Of a DNA stretch of 64,000 nt, positions 6,086-43,802 are shown piece by piece. Source of the DNA: Cytophagales bacterium (GTDB taxonomy: Bacteria > Bacteroidota > Bacteroidia > Cytophagales > Flammeovirgaceae); NCBI GenBank assembly GCA_025056215.1, contig JANWWC010000003.1:310001-374000 (forward strand), given 5' to 3'. Both the position numbers and the translations under genes were made by a program. Position 1 is the stretch's first letter. Each line of letters begins with the position of its first letter. The notes beneath the pieces were generated by a model. That model was given only the letters and a program-made list of their open reading frames with translations, was not told the DNA's origin and searched no databases.

Positions 6086-6101
6086 TGTTCCACGTGGAAC
6101 A
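6086..6101. other. parS: parS-type centromere site (16-bp perfect palindrome)
   Basis: TGTTCCACGTGGAACA is a perfect 16-bp palindrome matching the ParB-binding consensus TGTTNCACGTGNAACA at every fixed position. It lies in the non-coding gap between the DUF423 and NYN genes, 116 bases from a second copy. It probably nucleates ParB spreading for chromosome segregation. Confidence 0.85.
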
Positions 6102-6217: not shown

Positions 6218-6233
6218 TGTTTCACGTGAAACA
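6218..6233. other. parS: parS-type centromere site (canonical)
   Basis: TGTTTCACGTGAAACA is identical to the canonical Bacillus-type parS sequence and is a perfect palindrome. It is the second site in the same 299-base gap. No ParA or ParB gene is in the window. Confidence 0.9.
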
Positions 6234-29402: not shown

Positions 29403-29756
29403 ATGGTTGAAGATAATTTTCAAGAAGAATGGCGACGTTTTTTAACCAAATTCTCTGATTTCACTGGCAAAACTCCTACAGACCTTAATCCTATCTTGTT
29501 GCTCATCGGTATACAGGAACTCGGAAAAGGACATCGTTACTTTAGTAAAGAAGAAAAGCAAGACCTCCTTCATATCGCGGTTTGCAAACTTATGAGTTAT
29601 GCAGGCTATTACACTTTTGAAGGTTTTGACAAAGATGGATGGCCTCATTGGAGATTAGTCAAAAAAATTCCTTATTTGAACCTACAAAATCAAGAAGAAG
29701 CTTTGAAAAGGTTTATTTTAGAATATTTTAAAAAAGAAGTCGGCTGGGAATGGTAA
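29403..29756 (+). CDS. Conserved small hypothetical protein
   Basis: A 117-residue soluble protein, acidic and rich in aromatic residues. Landmarks are LNPILLLIGIQELG, YFSKEEKQDLLHIAVCKLMSYAGYY and DKDGWPHWRL. It looks like a well-folded helical protein of a family I associate with Bacteroidota, but I know no function. It overlaps xth by 7 bases and follows surE after 14 bases, so translation is probably coupled within one transcript. Confidence 0.75.
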   Translation: MVEDNFQEEWRRFLTKFSDFTGKTPTDLNPILLLIGIQELGKGHRYFSKEEKQDLLHIAVCKLMSYAGYYTFEGFDKDGWPHWRLVKKIPYLNLQNQEEALKRFILEYFKKEVGWEW

Positions 29757-30523
29757 AAATTGCTTCTTACAACGTAAATGGCATTCGATCAGCTATCCAA
29801 AAAGGATTGGTAGAGTGGCTTGCTGTTACAAATCCTGACATACTTTGTCTACAAGAGATAAAAGCTTCAAAACAACAAATCGACTTTCAGAACTTTGAGA
29901 AATTAGGATATCAGTACATCGCATGGAATGAAGCACAACAAAAAGGATACAGTGGCGTAGCTATTTTTTCGAAATATCCGTTTGAATCTTATTATTGCGG
30001 CATTCGTTCAGCTCGCTACGACAATGAAGGAAGAGCCATTACTGTGGTGTTTCCTACCTTTTATCTGTGCAACATCTATATTCCTTCTGGCACCTCGGGC
30101 AATATAAGACAACAAATCAAGTACGAGTGGCTCAACGACTTTGATATTTTTCTCGACACCTTCCCTTCAGACCGACCCTTGATAATTGGTGGAGATTTTA
30201 ACATTTGTCATACAGAAAAAGATATTCATAATCCCGTTGCCAACAAAAACAGCAGTGGATTTTTACCTGAAGAGCGTGCTTGGCTTTCTAAGTTCTTTGA
30301 AAAAGGATTTGTAGATGCTTTCCGATACAAAAATCCTCATGAAATCAGTTATACTTGGTGGAGCTACAGGTTTAATGCTCGAAAACGGAACCTTGGCTGG
30401 AGAATCGATTATTTTGCGGTTTCTTCTTTTGCGAAAGAAAATATCGTAGATTGTAACCACCAACTTGACGCTTATCATTCCGACCATTGTCCTGTTTTAC
30501 TTACTCTCAGTCTTTCACTGTAG
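29750..30523 (+). CDS. xth: Exodeoxyribonuclease III (AP endonuclease)
   Basis: A 257-residue nuclease of base-excision repair. Catalytic motifs are present: N8 and N10 in SYNVNGIR, E36 in LCLQEIKAS, GGDFNICH, TWWSYRFNARKRNLGWRIDYF, and the C-terminal D245/H246 in HSDHCPV. The length is normal. Its 3' end overlaps the dapA 3' end by 49 bases, the largest overlap in the window, and the overlap includes the codons of the SDHCPV active-site motif. Confidence 0.96.
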   Translation: MVKIASYNVNGIRSAIQKGLVEWLAVTNPDILCLQEIKASKQQIDFQNFEKLGYQYIAWNEAQQKGYSGVAIFSKYPFESYYCGIRSARYDNEGRAITVVFPTFYLCNIYIPSGTSGNIRQQIKYEWLNDFDIFLDTFPSDRPLIIGGDFNICHTEKDIHNPVANKNSSGFLPEERAWLSKFFEKGFVDAFRYKNPHEISYTWWSYRFNARKRNLGWRIDYFAVSSFAKENIVDCNHQLDAYHSDHCPVLLTLSLSL

Positions 30524-37513: not shown

Positions 37514-37529
37514 GCTTCTCTTAGTGAAA

Positions 37530-38438
37530 ATGTTTAGAAAACACTACTATCAACTATTAGCTTTTTTACGAGCATATTTCGGTTATACCGACCGAGAAGC
37601 GAAAGGTTACTTAATGCTAATCTTGTTACTTTTCGGTCTGATGGTAGTTCCCTCGTTCATTCGAGTGCCGGACAACTATTCTGAAGAACAATTTCAAAAG
37701 GATCAAAAAACGCTCGACAGCCTTTTAATTCTTTACCAGAGCAACTCAAACGCTAAAGCTACAACAAAAGATTCCTCTTTTTTACCTTACTCCGATGTTT
37801 CATTATCGCCTTTTAATCCTAACCGCATCGATAGTATTGGTTGGATAAAGTTAGGAGTTCCCTCTTGGATAGTAAGTAGAATCATAAAATACAAAAGCAA
37901 AGGAGGATACTTCAAAAGAAAAGAAGATTTACAAAAAATATATGGATTTCCTCTCCAACTTTACCGTAAACTCGAACCTTACTTAGTATTCGATACTCTT
38001 AATACAAAAATTCCTGCTAAGGAGAAAACAATTTTATCTCTTCCAAAACCTGACCTCAACAAAGCTAGTGAAACCGATATAGAAAAAATACGAGGCATTG
38101 GAAAAACTACAGCTCAAAGAATTATTAAATTTAGAGAAAAAATGGGAGGATTTGCTTCATGGGAAATTGTAAAAAAAACCTATGGACTTAAACTAGAACA
38201 GTTCGAATCGCTTCAAAAATACTTCACTCTTTCGCCTCTATCTTTCAAAAAGATTCCTATTAACTCAATCTCAACAGAAGATTTAGCTCAATTTCCTCTT
38301 ATCAGCAAAAAACAGGCACAGGTAATTACTTATTATCGCCAGCAACGCGGAAAATTTATAGATTTTGAAGATTTTGTAAAGACTTGTGAAATACCCGATA
38401 GCCTAGCAAATCTCTTAAAACCTTATTTAGAATTTTAA
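37530..38438 (+). CDS. Helix-hairpin-helix membrane-anchored DNA-binding protein (ComEA-like)
   Basis: A 302-residue protein from the ATG at 37530 (a GTG two codons upstream is possible). An N-terminal membrane helix (about 20-40) is followed by three to four helix-hairpin-helix units. KLGVPSWIVSRIIKYKSKGGYFKRKEDL, IRGIGKTTAQRIIKFREKMGGF, and FPLISKKQAQVITYYRQQRGKF are the clearest. ComEA-like proteins bind incoming DNA in the periplasm during natural transformation. This one is larger and might instead have another DNA-related role. comEC is present at 58.3-60.4 kb. Confidence 0.85.
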   Translation: MFRKHYYQLLAFLRAYFGYTDREAKGYLMLILLLFGLMVVPSFIRVPDNYSEEQFQKDQKTLDSLLILYQSNSNAKATTKDSSFLPYSDVSLSPFNPNRIDSIGWIKLGVPSWIVSRIIKYKSKGGYFKRKEDLQKIYGFPLQLYRKLEPYLVFDTLNTKIPAKEKTILSLPKPDLNKASETDIEKIRGIGKTTAQRIIKFREKMGGFASWEIVKKTYGLKLEQFESLQKYFTLSPLSFKKIPINSISTEDLAQFPLISKKQAQVITYYRQQRGKFIDFEDFVKTCEIPDSLANLLKPYLEF

Positions 38439-38477
38439 TTATTTACATCATTCTCAAGTTAAAATTTTAAGAGCATC

Positions 38478-39128
38478 ATGACATATTATGTGATAGATTT
38501 TGATAGCACTTTCACCAAAACAGAAGCTTTAGACGAGCTTGCCAAAATAGTGCAAGGCAAAGAAGGTACAGAAATTGCCGAAAAAATAAAACGTATTACC
38601 GAAATGGCTATGGAAGGAAAAATAGGTTTTGGGGAAGCATTAGAAGAAAGAATCAAGATTTTAGGCGCTCATAAGAAACATTTACTACCACTTATCGAAT
38701 TACTTCGATCTCTTGTATCAGACTCTCTTGTTCAACAAAAAGAATTTATTCGTCAGAATGCTCATAGGATTATTATTATTTCTGGAGGTTTTAAGGATTT
38801 CATTTTGCCTGTAGTTACGGAATACGGAATTCTTCCTGAAAATGTTTATGCAAACACTTTCCTATATGATGAAGAAGGAAACATCATAGGAGTGGATAAA
38901 ACAAACCCACTTTCTCAAACTAAAGGAAAAGTAAAACTTATCGAACAACTCCGACTAAAAGGAAAAGTGTGTGTAGTAGGCGACGGATATACAGATTACG
39001 AAATTAAAGAAGCTGGTTTGGCTGATATATTTTGTGCCTTCACTGAAAATGTGATACGTCCGCAAGTAGTCGCTAAAGCCGATATTGTTGCCGATTCATT
39101 TGAAAAAGTGTTTCAATTATGTGAATAA
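38478..39128 (+). CDS. serB: HAD-IB phosphatase, SerB-like
   Basis: A 216-residue haloacid-dehalogenase-fold phosphatase. The nucleophile motif is D7/D9 in VIDFDSTFTK, the second motif is IIIISGGF, and the third is KGKVKLIEQ with VVGDGYTDYEIKEAG. These fit phosphoserine phosphatase, the last step of serine synthesis. Other HAD-IB substrates are possible. The TAA stop sits inside the first of a series of DnaA-box-like nonamers that fill the following non-coding gap. It starts 39 bases after the HHH gene. Confidence 0.85.
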   Translation: MTYYVIDFDSTFTKTEALDELAKIVQGKEGTEIAEKIKRITEMAMEGKIGFGEALEERIKILGAHKKHLLPLIELLRSLVSDSLVQQKEFIRQNAHRIIIISGGFKDFILPVVTEYGILPENVYANTFLYDEEGNIIGVDKTNPLSQTKGKVKLIEQLRLKGKVCVVGDGYTDYEIKEAGLADIFCAFTENVIRPQVVAKADIVADSFEKVFQLCE

Positions 39129-39540
39129 GATGACAATTGAATGTGAAAAACTAGCATGCTTTTTCTAAAAAATTCACACCTAAATTTTTACAAATAAAGC
39201 AATTTGAATAAGCATAAAGTTTCTCACACAAGATTGATGATTTTTTCCAATCAGATTTTTTTCACACTTTTGAAAACGAGAATTGTGAAAACGTGAACAA
39301 ACTACAAAAATAGTTTGCTATCAATTTGTTCGATTGCAGGAAACTTGTGAATAAAATTTTATGAAGAAGTTTTTCACAATCTCACATAAGTACACCAAGA
39401 GCACTAAAAACAGTTTTTTTAAAAAAGAAATATTTGTATGAATTGTCCTTTCAAAAAAAGCATCATTTTTATGGGTTTTTAAGTTTGAAATTCCTTAAAT
39501 AAAGTTATTTTTATGTGGCTTTTTACCCGACATAAAACAA
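39120..39540. other. Candidate chromosomal replication origin (oriC) with DnaA-box cluster
   Basis: The non-coding gap between serB and the TPR-CHAT gene carries eight or nine nonamers ending in TCACA. Two match TTATNCACA exactly: 39120-39128 and 39346-39354, both minus strand (TTATTCACA). Near matches are TTTTTCACA at 39142-39150(-), 39258-39266(+) and 39370-39378(+), GTTTTCACA at 39284-39292(-), AAATTCACA at 39170-39178(+), TTTCTCACA at 39220-39228(+), and AATCTCACA at 39378-39386(+). An A/T-rich stretch with long T and A runs (about 39410-39530) follows, a candidate unwinding element. No dnaA gene is near, which is common in Bacteroidota. The two parS sites lie 33 kb to the left. No protein or RNA gene is seen in the gap. 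Confidence 0.7.
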
Positions 39541-39566
39541 GAACGCTGTGACTAACCGAAGTTAAC

Positions 39567-42500
39567 ATGTACTTTCATAGCTTATATATAATAATTTTTT
39601 GCTTAATTGCAGCAATTCAAGGTTTTTCGCACGAGAAGCATTTAGAAATTTGCGAGCGATATTATGAAGAAGGTCAATACGACAAAGCCTTAGAGCAAAG
39701 TCAAAGACTTATTAACAAGCTTCAAAAAGGTGACTATGGTTTCGTAGTGGCAAAAGTAATGCTCTATCAAGCTAAGTATTACGAGGCATTAGGGCGCTAT
39801 TCTGATTTTGAAAGTGTTTTGCTTCAAGCTCTTAAAGTTTTCCAAACCAAGGGAAATGAAAGCATCTCGTTTGGCGTTGCCAATCTGATGGCTGCTTACT
39901 TGTATACGATATACTCAGATATCAATACAGCAGAAGTGTATTTGAAGAACTCGGAAGAGATATTATCGAATTTTAAAAATGAAATAGATGAAGATCATTC
40001 AATTAACTTTACGAAACTGTATGTAAAGGCTCAAATACTGTTAGAGCGCGGAGATTATAAAGGATTCTGGGCAATTTCTGATGTCCTTAAAAACGCAGCA
40101 CAGAAGCAAATAACATCTTCTGAAACGGTATTTGAAATTTATAATGACAAATTTGTTACCAAAAAACTTACACCCGCCCAATTGAGAAGGCGAAAAAGGC
40201 AATACGCTCATGTACTTACTCTAATAGCGCGCTCTTACAGGCTGTATGGAGATTATCAGGCTGCTGAGATGAAGCTTAACGAAGCGGAAAACTGGATTAA
40301 AAGTAATCTTAACAACAAAGATATGGCATTTGTGCGCAATCAAACTGAAAGAATCCAGCTTCGAATCGATCGACTTGAGCCTGCTTCTGAGATAAAAAAA
40401 GATCTGCAGACCAATATCTTTTTAGCTGAACGCCGCTTTGGTCTTTCTCATAAAGACTTTTTTGAACTTCATCAAGTTCTTATAGACTTTATGATGAAGG
40501 CTAATTATACCAATACTACCAACTTTCAGCTTTGGGAAATGCGCACTAATGCTTCTAAATTTTATGGAAAGGATAAGCTTCCGTATGCTGTCTGGGGAAG
40601 ACAAAATGCCCAAAGGCTCATGCTACAAGGAAATTATAGGGCAGCGCGTCAGGACCTCGAAGAGCTCTTAGCAGACTTTCGGAAGGTGCCCTCTAACCAT
40701 ATAGAGCGCATAAAAATATTAGATTTAATGTATCAGCTTCTCATAAAAGCAGACGATTATGAAGCAGCTTATAAGTTCCTTAAGAAAAAACAGGAGGCTA
40801 TTAGAACTGTTTTAGGAGAAAACTCTCTTTTGTACTTTTTCGCTAAAGTCGATGAGTCTGTTTATTATTTGAATTTTACAAATAATTTTCAAGCTTCAGA
40901 CTCACTTTATCGCGAATACTTTGAAAGTAAAGTTTCCACTGCTATTGCCAAAACTCATAAAGATTATGTAAAATATCTTTTTCACCGCTCCGAATATTTT
41001 GAGATCTTAGATCAATATTCCCGTGCCAGAGAATGCTTGGAGGAAGGCCTAGATATTTTAAAACAAAGATTTCCAGAAAATTCTATTCCTTACGCAGCAG
41101 GATTAGAACGTTTGATAGACTTAGAGCTCACGCAAGGCGACTATAGGGCTGCTAACGAACATATAGAGAAAGTTCTCTCTATCTTTAACGCACAGTATGA
41201 TGGCCATACACACCAATATGAATACTCTAAAGCTCTCGAAACTTCTGCTCGTTACTTTGCTTTATTAGGGTTGTTCGATGATGCTAAACAAAACTTAAGC
41301 CGTTCCTCGAAACTTTATAAGCGTTCTGAAACATCGATAGCCGCATCGAAATCTGCTGACGAGCTTGCTTATTTGTACATTCGGTCCGAAAAATTTAATC
41401 AAGCCGAAAACATTCTCTTGAAAGCGATTGACATTCGGAAGCAGCGATACGGACAAGAAAACCGTTTTCTTATTACTTCTTATAATCAACTTGCGCGTCT
41501 TAGGTATATTTTCGGTGAATATTTAGAAGCAGAACGGCTTGCTAACGAAGCGTATCATCTTGCAAAAAAAATTTTTGGCGATAGCTCTGTAAAGGTAACG
41601 GAGAGCCTTATTCTACGTTCTGAGCTTTACATGGCTATGGGGAACTATCAAACTGCTGAAGAGAGCATATCAGAAGCTATTAGAATTCAGGAACTTCTCT
41701 ATGGCAAAAATCACATTCAATTAGTCAATTCTCTTACTCAACTAGCTTTGATTAAATTTTATAACAATGAACCAATCGAAAAAATAGAAAGCTTGCTTTT
41801 GCAGGTGTTAGCAATTATCAGAGAGAATTTGGGAGAGGATAATCCGATGTACGCGAATGCTTTGAAAAACTTAGCTCTTGTCTATACGGAAGGTACTAAA
41901 TACGAGGAAGCCCTTGCCTCTCTTCGGCAAGCAAATCAGATTTGGATAAGCAAGTTCAAAACAGAAAAAAACACCAACAGCGCTGAAATAGAGCTTCTCA
42001 TAGGAGACGTAGAAATGCGCCGCAACCAATTACAAGACGCTGTCGATCAATATAATAAATCGAGAAAAACTTACAGAAAAGTATTTAATAAGCAGCATCC
42101 GATGTATGTAAAAGCTATTTCAAAGGCGGGGAGAGCTTATTACGCACAGCGCCGTTATTCACGTGCACTTACATTTACTAACCGCGCACTTAAAAGTTAT
42201 TTGAATTATATCGAGAAGTTTTTTCCAGCTCTTAGCGAGAGAGAAAAAACTCGCTATTGGAATCTAATTCGGAACGATTTTGAGTTTTACAATAGTTTAG
42301 CAATTCGCGCACGTAATCCGTTTCGAGAAAGGTTGCCAGGTAAAATGTATAACAACGTTTTGGCTACTAAAGGAATTTTGTTGAGTTCTTCTATTAAAAC
42401 CCGAAATAAAATTCTTAACAGCGGAGATTCATCTCTTATTGCTTTATACAACACTTGGATTGAAAAAAAAGAGCTCCTTACCCAAGTAATTGCTATGAAT

Positions 42501-43802
42501 GCAGAACAACTTCGCGAAGAAGGTATAGATATTAAAAAAATTGAAAAAGAAATCGAAGCTATTGAAAAGCAATTGAGCCAAACCTCTGCTGAGTTTGGAA
42601 CTTCAAAAGAAAAGCTTGTTACTTGGAAAGATGTTAGAAAGAATCTAAAAGAAGATGAGGTGGCCATCGAAATTGTACGTTACCGGCATTTTGAAAGAAC
42701 TTTTACTGATTCAATTATTTACTTAGCCCTTCAAGTATCTCCTCGAAGTTATAAGGCGCCTAAAGTAATAATTTTTTCAAACGGAAAAGAAATGGAAGAA
42801 AGAATGTTAAAATATTATAAATCTTCCATTAAGTATAACATAGAAGATGAACTTTCATATAAAAGTTATTGGAAACCAATTGATTTGCAACTACCTCCAA
42901 ACTGCAAAAAAGTATATTTTTCTCCTGAAGGTGCTTATACTCAAATCAATTTGGAATCCATTGTTGACGATACAGGCACTTATTTAATCGATCGATTGAA
43001 TATTGCTCTCATTGGTTCAACGAAGGATATTGCAGTCCGACACGAAAAGGAAATGATGAAGTATCGCCGAGAAATTGTTTTGTTTGGTAATCCTGCTTTT
43101 TATAAAGATATGACTGACAAAGATATTTTGGTAGATCTTAAACGCAATATTCCGCAGTTGCCAGGGACTTATTACGAAGTGCGGGGAATTGATAGCATGC
43201 TCATTACTCGAACTACTTATATTGTCAATACTTACACAGGTACGTATGCTACAGAAGAAGAGCTTGTTCAAATCGAAAGCCCAAAAGTGTTCCATATTGC
43301 TACCCATGGTTTTTTTATGCCTGATGAAGAAGAATCTAATACAGAAAATGCTTTGAATGCAAACCGAACTTTTAACAATCCTTTGCTTCGATGTGGCGTT
43401 TTACTTCGCAATGCTGGTGAAATGATGAAAGATAAAAATATTTTCAGCTATAACAAAGAACCTGGTATTCTTACTGCGTATGAAGCCATGAACCTGAATT
43501 TGGATTATACGGAGTTAGTGGTACTTTCTGCTTGTGAAACAGGTCGCGGCGATGTAAAAGTAGGAGAAGGAGTTTATGGTTTGCAACGAGCTTTTTTGGT
43601 AGCAGGTGCGAACGCACTTGTGATGTCTTTGTTTAAAGTAAACGATGAAGCTACACAACGTCTGATGCTTTATTTCTATCAGAATTGGATAGAGCGGAAA
43701 ATGGATAAAAGAGAAGCTTTTATATTAGCTAAAAAGCAACTTCGAAAAAAGTATCCAGAACCTATTTTCTGGGCACCTTTTATTATGATAGGGGCTGTTT
43801 GA
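39567..43802 (+). CDS. Secreted TPR-CHAT caspase-like protease
   Basis: A 1411-residue exported protein. A signal peptide (about 1-21) leads into many TPR repeats (about 25-900), several of the NB-ARC/kinesin-light-chain type with AGLERLIDLELTQGDYRAANEHIEKVL. A coiled-coil linker (about 985-1020) precedes a C-terminal CHAT domain (about 1100-1411). The caspase-type dyad is H1247 in FHIATHGFF and C1323 in VLSACETGRGD, and the family end VAGANALVMSLFKVNDEAT is present. CHAT proteins are cysteine peptidases, sometimes activated through TPR contacts. The target is unknown. It is a single gene between the candidate oriC and groES, ending 82 bases before groES. The signal peptide distinguishes it from cytoplasmic defence-type CHAT proteins. 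Confidence 0.9.
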   Translation: MYFHSLYIIIFCLIAAIQGFSHEKHLEICERYYEEGQYDKALEQSQRLINKLQKGDYGFVVAKVMLYQAKYYEALGRYSDFESVLLQALKVFQTKGNESISFGVANLMAAYLYTIYSDINTAEVYLKNSEEILSNFKNEIDEDHSINFTKLYVKAQILLERGDYKGFWAISDVLKNAAQKQITSSETVFEIYNDKFVTKKLTPAQLRRRKRQYAHVLTLIARSYRLYGDYQAAEMKLNEAENWIKSNLNNKDMAFVRNQTERIQLRIDRLEPASEIKKDLQTNIFLAERRFGLSHKDFFELHQVLIDFMMKANYTNTTNFQLWEMRTNASKFYGKDKLPYAVWGRQNAQRLMLQGNYRAARQDLEELLADFRKVPSNHIERIKILDLMYQLLIKADDYEAAYKFLKKKQEAIRTVLGENSLLYFFAKVDESVYYLNFTNNFQASDSLYREYFESKVSTAIAKTHKDYVKYLFHRSEYFEILDQYSRARECLEEGLDILKQRFPENSIPYAAGLERLIDLELTQGDYRAANEHIEKVLSIFNAQYDGHTHQYEYSKALETSARYFALLGLFDDAKQNLSRSSKLYKRSETSIAASKSADELAYLYIRSEKFNQAENILLKAIDIRKQRYGQENRFLITSYNQLARLRYIFGEYLEAERLANEAYHLAKKIFGDSSVKVTESLILRSELYMAMGNYQTAEESISEAIRIQELLYGKNHIQLVNSLTQLALIKFYNNEPIEKIESLLLQVLAIIRENLGEDNPMYANALKNLALVYTEGTKYEEALASLRQANQIWISKFKTEKNTNSAEIELLIGDVEMRRNQLQDAVDQYNKSRKTYRKVFNKQHPMYVKAISKAGRAYYAQRRYSRALTFTNRALKSYLNYIEKFFPALSEREKTRYWNLIRNDFEFYNSLAIRARNPFRERLPGKMYNNVLATKGILLSSSIKTRNKILNSGDSSLIALYNTWIEKKELLTQVIAMNAEQLREEGIDIKKIEKEIEAIEKQLSQTSAEFGTSKEKLVTWKDVRKNLKEDEVAIEIVRYRHFERTFTDSIIYLALQVSPRSYKAPKVIIFSNGKEMEERMLKYYKSSIKYNIEDELSYKSYWKPIDLQLPPNCKKVYFSPEGAYTQINLESIVDDTGTYLIDRLNIALIGSTKDIAVRHEKEMMKYRREIVLFGNPAFYKDMTDKDILVDLKRNIPQLPGTYYEVRGIDSMLITRTTYIVNTYTGTYATEEELVQIESPKVFHIATHGFFMPDEEESNTENALNANRTFNNPLLRCGVLLRNAGEMMKDKNIFSYNKEPGILTAYEAMNLNLDYTELVVLSACETGRGDVKVGEGVYGLQRAFLVAGANALVMSLFKVNDEATQRLMLYFYQNWIERKMDKREAFILAKKQLRKKYPEPIFWAPFIMIGAV

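Follow-up and report, generated by a model that had tools for sequence, protein, structure and literature searches.

A very probable chromosomal replication origin between serB and a TPR-CHAT gene in a small Cytophagales genome

The gap between a stand-alone serB and a TPR-CHAT gene is, judging from sequence features, very probably the chromosomal oriC of the Cytophagales genome studied here (G000; 2,828,928 b in 17 contigs, 99.5% complete). The gap lies in the window, by which we mean the whole stretch of 64,000 b that was analysed (G000:C11:310001-374000; positions without a contig name refer to it). A reading of the window from its sequence alone had proposed a candidate replication origin here, and this proposal is supported by a change point of the GC skew and by the top box cluster in the scanned part of the genome. 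We consider the explanation as a whole, an oriC in the serB-CHAT gap at which the genome's own DnaA would initiate and ParB/parS would aid separation, highly likely. The origin of a small Cytophagales genome can in this way be placed though its gene neighbours give no clue.

DnaA boxes, GC skew and parS

Within 267 b (39120-39386) there are nine nonamers that end in TCACA; the minus strand has four of them and the plus strand the other five. On the minus strand, the predicted DnaA boxes are TTATTCACA at 39120..39128 and again at 39346..39354, TTTTTCACA at 39142..39150 and GTTTTCACA at 39284..39292. The plus strand carries TTTTTCACA at 39258..39266 and 39370..39378 together with three predicted weak boxes, AAATTCACA (39170..39178), TTTCTCACA (39220..39228) and AATCTCACA (39378..39386). 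Five of the nine fit TTWTTCACA and two fit TTATNCACA exactly, while two (39220 and 39378) have C in place of T at position 4. The stop codon of serB (39126-39128) falls within the first box. The count, the two exact matches and the position of the stop codon agree with the sequence-only reading, which had counted eight to nine two-strand nonamers in 267 bases, two of them exact, and had seen the serB stop inside the first one.

At the genome rate, 0.32 TCACA would be expected in 267 b where nine were observed (P = 7e-11, or 1.4e-4 when multiplied by the number of bases scanned), and dinucleotide shuffles of the cluster stretch contained 1.3 on average, with at least nine in only 1 of 5000. Our box scan covered 2,063,241 of the 2,828,928 b (72.9%), namely all of C11, nine short contigs and, for each of the remaining large contigs, usually 20 kb per 30 kb; a small number of scanned bases are N, and one of the nine short contigs (<2.3 kb) is without G or C and consists of N or nearly so. 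Within this 72.9% of the genome the cluster was the densest place for TCACA, with nine per 300 b and five at the next best place. A looser count (at most one mismatch to TTWTNCACA) gave ten per 300 b in the cluster, followed by two groups of seven at C9:989556 and C11:303231. A box cluster that is unusual within its genome, one of the criteria for an oriC, is present here as judged from the scanned part; similar clusters elsewhere, which had been named as an observation that would speak against an origin, were not seen, none in that 72.9% being its equal. A strand bias of TTWTNCACA on C9 was considered and rejected (31 plus- and 22 minus-strand matches in the sampled stretches past 430 kb). 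The pair pattern TTWTNCACA-N-TGTGNAWAA, searched in nine genomes, had no match in G000 and was informative for G014, G021, G026 and G037.

Contig C11 (422,056 b) was analysed whole for skew and boxes. Its cumulative GC skew has its minimum at window position 38455 and rises thereafter, and a two-level fit places the change point at 38600 (support range 37800..39600, log-likelihood gain 84), a range that contains the box cluster. Within error, this is the minimum anticipated near 39.3 kb, as seen on this 422-kb contig of a genome in 17 contigs. The GC skew switches from negative to positive at the cluster and was seen to do so nowhere else on C11 or in the stretches sampled from the other large contigs. 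These stretches are single-signed apart from near-zero values, for example in the first 5 kb of C12; the exception is C9, where the skew passes from plus to minus between the 190-210 and 220-240 kb stretches. This change is terminus-like, and C9 holds the putative terminus. Near the sign change, three copies of TTATCCACA lie on one strand within 1.3 kb (C9:228290-229596). The loose group of seven nonamers at C11:303231 is found 46 kb to the left of the origin cluster, outside the support range of the skew change. A switch in strand composition, a further criterion for an oriC, is given by the GC skew on C11. The minima of the other two skews lie elsewhere and speak against this place: that of the purine skew at 216244 of C11, away from the cluster, and that of the keto skew at 355671 (window 45671), 6 kb to its right.

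The position of the keto minimum would suit a different reading, that the cluster is a DnaA regulatory or titration site (datA- or DARS-like) near an origin firing some kb off. A relative, G014, does have an extra cluster of six boxes (C1:10898-11062), so clusters alone are no proof of an origin. Such a site is nevertheless improbable here, given that the change-point range of the GC skew contains the cluster itself, that the rest of C11 has at most four TCACA per 300 b everywhere, and that the loose group on the same contig is 46 kb off and outside this range.

The cluster is followed by an AT-rich candidate unwinding element (39395..39535, limits set by eye). AT content reaches 77.5% in 39400-39519, a value attained by 0.96% of 120-b windows; this puts the stretch in the top 1% and bears out the A/T-rich region that had been noted directly after the boxes. 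The last two boxes (39370 and 39378, in the same orientation) turn their CACA ends to this stretch, so that composition and order are those expected of an oriC, where an AT-rich stretch follows the CACA end of the last box. The R1 box of E. coli has the same orientation toward its unwinding element. That the box beside this element is oriented in a conserved way is stated in a passage of PMC5043019. DnaA-trios, scored by a rule taken from a passage of PMC8287927, are weak at the cluster and not convincing: the longest run, of five, is at box 39142 on its left side, a length of at least five being reached by ~5% of control TCACA sites, and both right-hand boxes have runs of one.

Two parS sites, TGTTCCACGTGGAACA at 6086..6101 and TGTTTCACGTGAAACA at 6218..6233, match TGTTNCACGTGNAACA exactly; they are the only exact parS in the whole genome, and both lie in the window, 33 kb from the box cluster. 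Their presence in the same region is likewise a criterion for an oriC. One ParB_N protein is encoded in the genome (gene at C10:126635), and the single dnaA that we found is on another contig than the cluster (C13:191881-193320), its product retaining three Pfam domains. Both the two parS sites at 33 kb and the lack of an adjoining dnaA had been described correctly from the window alone. Exact parS was present in five of the nine genomes searched, G000 included, and absent in G002, G012, G026 and G037, so an exact site is not shared by the whole order; the spacing of the pair is 132 b in G000 and 133 b in G001.

The TCACA repeats could also be sites of another regulator acting on the CHAT gene or serB, since the CHAT gene starts just downstream of them and only five of the nine are exact TTWTNCACA. 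Their coincidence with the skew change point and the parS sites would then have no explanation, and nonamers with T at position 5 (T5) are also the prevailing ones ahead of the TPR gene in the relatives G006 and G004; we regard a regulator of this kind as very improbable. If the gap is an oriC, the single DnaA of the genome would bind the TTWTTCACA boxes on both strands and assemble toward the rightmost box pair, whose CACA ends face 39395-39535. The duplex would open within this stretch, two forks would depart in opposite directions, and ParB, bound to the two parS sites that lie 33 kb leftward, would help to part the copies.

Genes around the gap

To the left of the gap lie a gene for a ComEA-like helix-hairpin-helix protein (37524..38438) and the stand-alone gene for a serB-type HAD phosphatase of 216 aa (38478..39128). 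The right neighbour of the cluster is the gene of the TPR-CHAT protein (1411 aa, 39567..43802); all three are on the plus strand. In 31 of the 33 other genomes with a match, serB belongs to a longer frame of 629-781 aa, which also matches 2-Hacid_dh_C in the four relatives tested and looks, from these matches, like SerB fused to SerA.

That serB ends here could point to a misassembly, in which pieces of the left and right arms were joined near 39 kb, creating a false skew change and leaving a short serB at the join. Against this, the serB match covers the residues typical of the domain (3-212 of the 216 query residues in matches to relatives), and short serB frames are also found in G024 and G033. 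A candidate stand-alone serA is found at C14:159774-161073 among a total of nine 2-Hacid_dh_C matches. It forms a frame of its own that has its own start, and the short stretch in frame ahead of it is not SerB-like. A chance join, moreover, would not place the top box cluster of the genome at this very position, and we judge a misassembly extremely unlikely.

We also asked whether serB marks the origin in relatives, and rejected this. In 80 loci from named records, the 560 b that span and follow the end of serB never held more than a single exact TTWTNCACA, several of these loci ending at contig ends, and none of 109 serB loci (E 1e-15, window proteins) had comEA-like, sucA or CHAT neighbours, 29 of them having only ~1.5 kb of flank. 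The 80 relatives come mostly from Pontibacter, Adhaeribacter, Rufibacter and others, and a few are labelled Chitinophagaceae, Bacteroidia, Latescibacterota or Neisseriaceae. Most of these names we take to be Cytophagales, and the host is presumably a member of the same order.

The usual place of the box cluster in the family

The surroundings of parS were read in three members of the family of G000 (G001, G003 and G014) and in G021, which belongs to another family. The four relatives have in common the order DUF4175-type protein, parS, mnmG, Big_5 protein, AT-rich gap and TPR protein, with the domain matches (DUF4175, and GIDA for mnmG) carried by the G021 copies. A pair homologous to window 29403-30523 lies near the DUF4175 end of this order in G003, G014 and G021, whereas G001 has it towards the TPR protein. 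In these four relatives 4-6 kb separate parS from the box-bearing gap, compared with 33 kb in G000; the distance of this gap to the skew minimum is 7 kb in G001 and 12 kb in G003 (100-120 kb read). Such gaps are about 0.5-1.2 kb long in the other genomes of the family, compared with 0.44 kb in G000. The gap nonamers of G001 and G003 are mostly TTATCAACA, and few fit TTWTNCACA.

The TPR protein was present in 36 of the 38 genomes searched, G009 being the only one of the 17 other family members without a match. A box cluster was found upstream of the TPR gene, which lies near Big_5, mnmG and, in genomes that have it, parS, in all 16 family relatives read: 15 have 7-24 TTWTNMACA in the upstream 1500 b (523 b in G011), and G006 has four TTWTNCACA within about 230 b. 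The upstream counts are less telling for seven of the nine g3 genomes, where the downstream 1500 b are nearly as rich (12-14), and for G008, with seven downstream. Outside the family, where 14 of the 19 genomes with a TPR match were read, six have at least four TTWTNCACA and eight have two or fewer, so this place is common to several families and not universal.

In G000 these genes are dispersed. Its mnmG (C9:103 kb) shares a contig with the putative terminus, a Big_5 homologue is at C10:166 kb and the TPR gene is at C10:133 kb. The TPR homologue (C10:133404) has a single TTWTNMACA upstream and no cluster, and no remnant of an origin at the family's usual place was seen in C10:120001-180000, where there are at most two TTWTNMACA per 500 b and the skew has one sign. 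The cluster of G000 adjoins neither dnaA nor the mnmG-TPR pair of the family, these indicator genes being on C13, C9 and C10, respectively; to our knowledge, such adjacency is common for a bacterial oriC, not defining. Compared with its family, the candidate origin and parS of G000 are both out of the ancestral mnmG/TPR neighbourhood, yet near each other, a separation that would be compatible with the origin having moved or with its neighbours having moved. It would offer a natural case of an origin changing place while staying near parS, with DnaA and its boxes changing together or not.

Further dense groups of boxes were noticed in two other genomes. The second tight cluster of G014 (six boxes, G014:C1:10898-11062), about 100 kb from parS, is perhaps a regulatory DnaA site. 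In G037, 15 box-like nonamers lie in ~700 b (C1:3016750-3017436), far from the TPR gene; we did not call this cluster an origin, as there was no skew minimum there within the 20 kb fetched.

Box spelling, DnaA divergence and known systems

All five exact TTWTNCACA matches in the cluster of G000 have T5, as do all seven nonamers of its gap that were chosen without regard to position 5; the nine TCACA sites were themselves selected by T5, and their count says nothing on a T5 preference. A nonamer at 39186 with at most one mismatch to TTWTNCACA, TTTTACAAA, has A5. We compared spellings in the gaps of 16 genomes (291-1200 b each), nine of them from the family of G000. T5 is frequent also in G006 (7/10) and G004 (9/12). 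A at position 6 predominates in G001 (7/9), G003 (18/23), G005 (20/32), G007 (12/14) and G011 (11/14), with TTATCAACA as the commonest gap nonamer in each; G014 is mixed, and TTATCAACA is again the commonest. The A6 nonamer TTATCAACA is a possible box dialect, to judge from these counts. Outside the family, TTATCCACA leads in G021, G025, G026, G027, G031, G033 and G037. A search by title and abstract, with most subscription journals outside its reach, returned no paper on origin relocation or TTATCAACA boxes in Cytophagales; the TTATCAACA string occurs once in PMC4674748 (Cyanothece).

The DnaA of G000 has diverged unusually and its MnmG has not. DnaA identity of G000 to G001, G003, G006 and G014 is 42-44%, compared with 55-71% among those four, and MnmG identity to G001, G003 and G014 is 68-71%, with 71-76% among those three (aligned lengths vary). 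In a five-taxon DnaA tree the G000 branch measures 1.02 and the next longest 0.36 (ratio 2.8). The corresponding ratios are ~1.0 for MnmG, 1.0 for the TPR protein, 0.8 for DUF4175 and 1.7 for Exo_endo, and part of the DnaA excess may, in view of ratios like the last one, be due to a generally longer G000 branch. We aligned 26 other DnaAs of the order (best matches plus three; 6 of 32 loci were dropped, with no frame extracted). At positions otherwise 90% conserved, G000 has 38 residues of its own and the 26 other rows have 0-15. Its Walker A motif reads GKVGVGKT, compared with GGVGLGKT in most rows, and changes are also found in the ATPase and DNA-binding domains.

Residue numbers of the 399 type are those of E. 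coli DnaA. The equivalent of Arg399 is Lys in G000 and Arg in all 26 other rows; in E. coli DnaA, according to a passage of PMC5742627, Arg399 reads the TTA of the box from the minor groove. G000 has Ser at the equivalent of 438, found in none of the 26, and Ser at that of 435, found in all. According to passages of PMC5043019, Ser at 438 is frequent in Epsilon- and Deltaproteobacterial DnaAs, and T5 is found in every Epsilonproteobacterial box. G006 resembles G000 in two respects, its T5 boxes and an Ala at the equivalent of 436. The relation between DnaA residues and box spelling appears in these alignments as a correlation in few genomes. It is conceivable, at somewhat less than an even chance, that initiation was rewired as a unit, with the origin and parS leaving the mnmG/TPR locus and coming to lie within 33 kb of each other, DnaA outpacing control proteins and altering base-reading residues (Lys for Arg at 399, Ser at 438), and the boxes becoming T5. 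The family would then form a natural series of DnaA-box dialects (TTATCAACA, TTATTCACA and TTWTTCACA).

The candidate origin shares with the oriC of the E. coli/B. subtilis type a cluster of boxes, a flank rich in AT next to the CACA end of the last one, a skew minimum and parS in the domain, and differs from it in that the cluster of G000 is not by dnaA or mnmG, has boxes that favour T5 and shows no clear DnaA-trios. It resembles the Epsilonproteobacterial origins with a TTCAC core, as described in PMC5043019, in the prevalence of T5 and in the Ser of its DnaA at the equivalent of 438; Ser at that of 435 is shared as well, though also with all 26 other rows. Those origins flank dnaA and their DnaAs keep Arg399, a pairing absent from G000, which has Lys at this position and dnaA on C13. 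The TPR-upstream clusters of its own family are like that of G000 in being box-like clusters in an AT-rich gap, with parS nearby where the exact site exists, and unlike it in place, flanking genes and spelling (TTATCAACA in several). Blattabacterium (PMC2768785) likewise has a reduced genome within the Bacteroidota, and its origin, located from the skew, coincides with neither dnaA nor gidA; it has no dnaA, and no boxes were found there, in contrast to G000, which has both. As a kind, the probable oriC of G000 is already known. It stands out by combining a new location, a parS pair that is once more in its vicinity, an altered spelling of the boxes and a DnaA that has changed fast.
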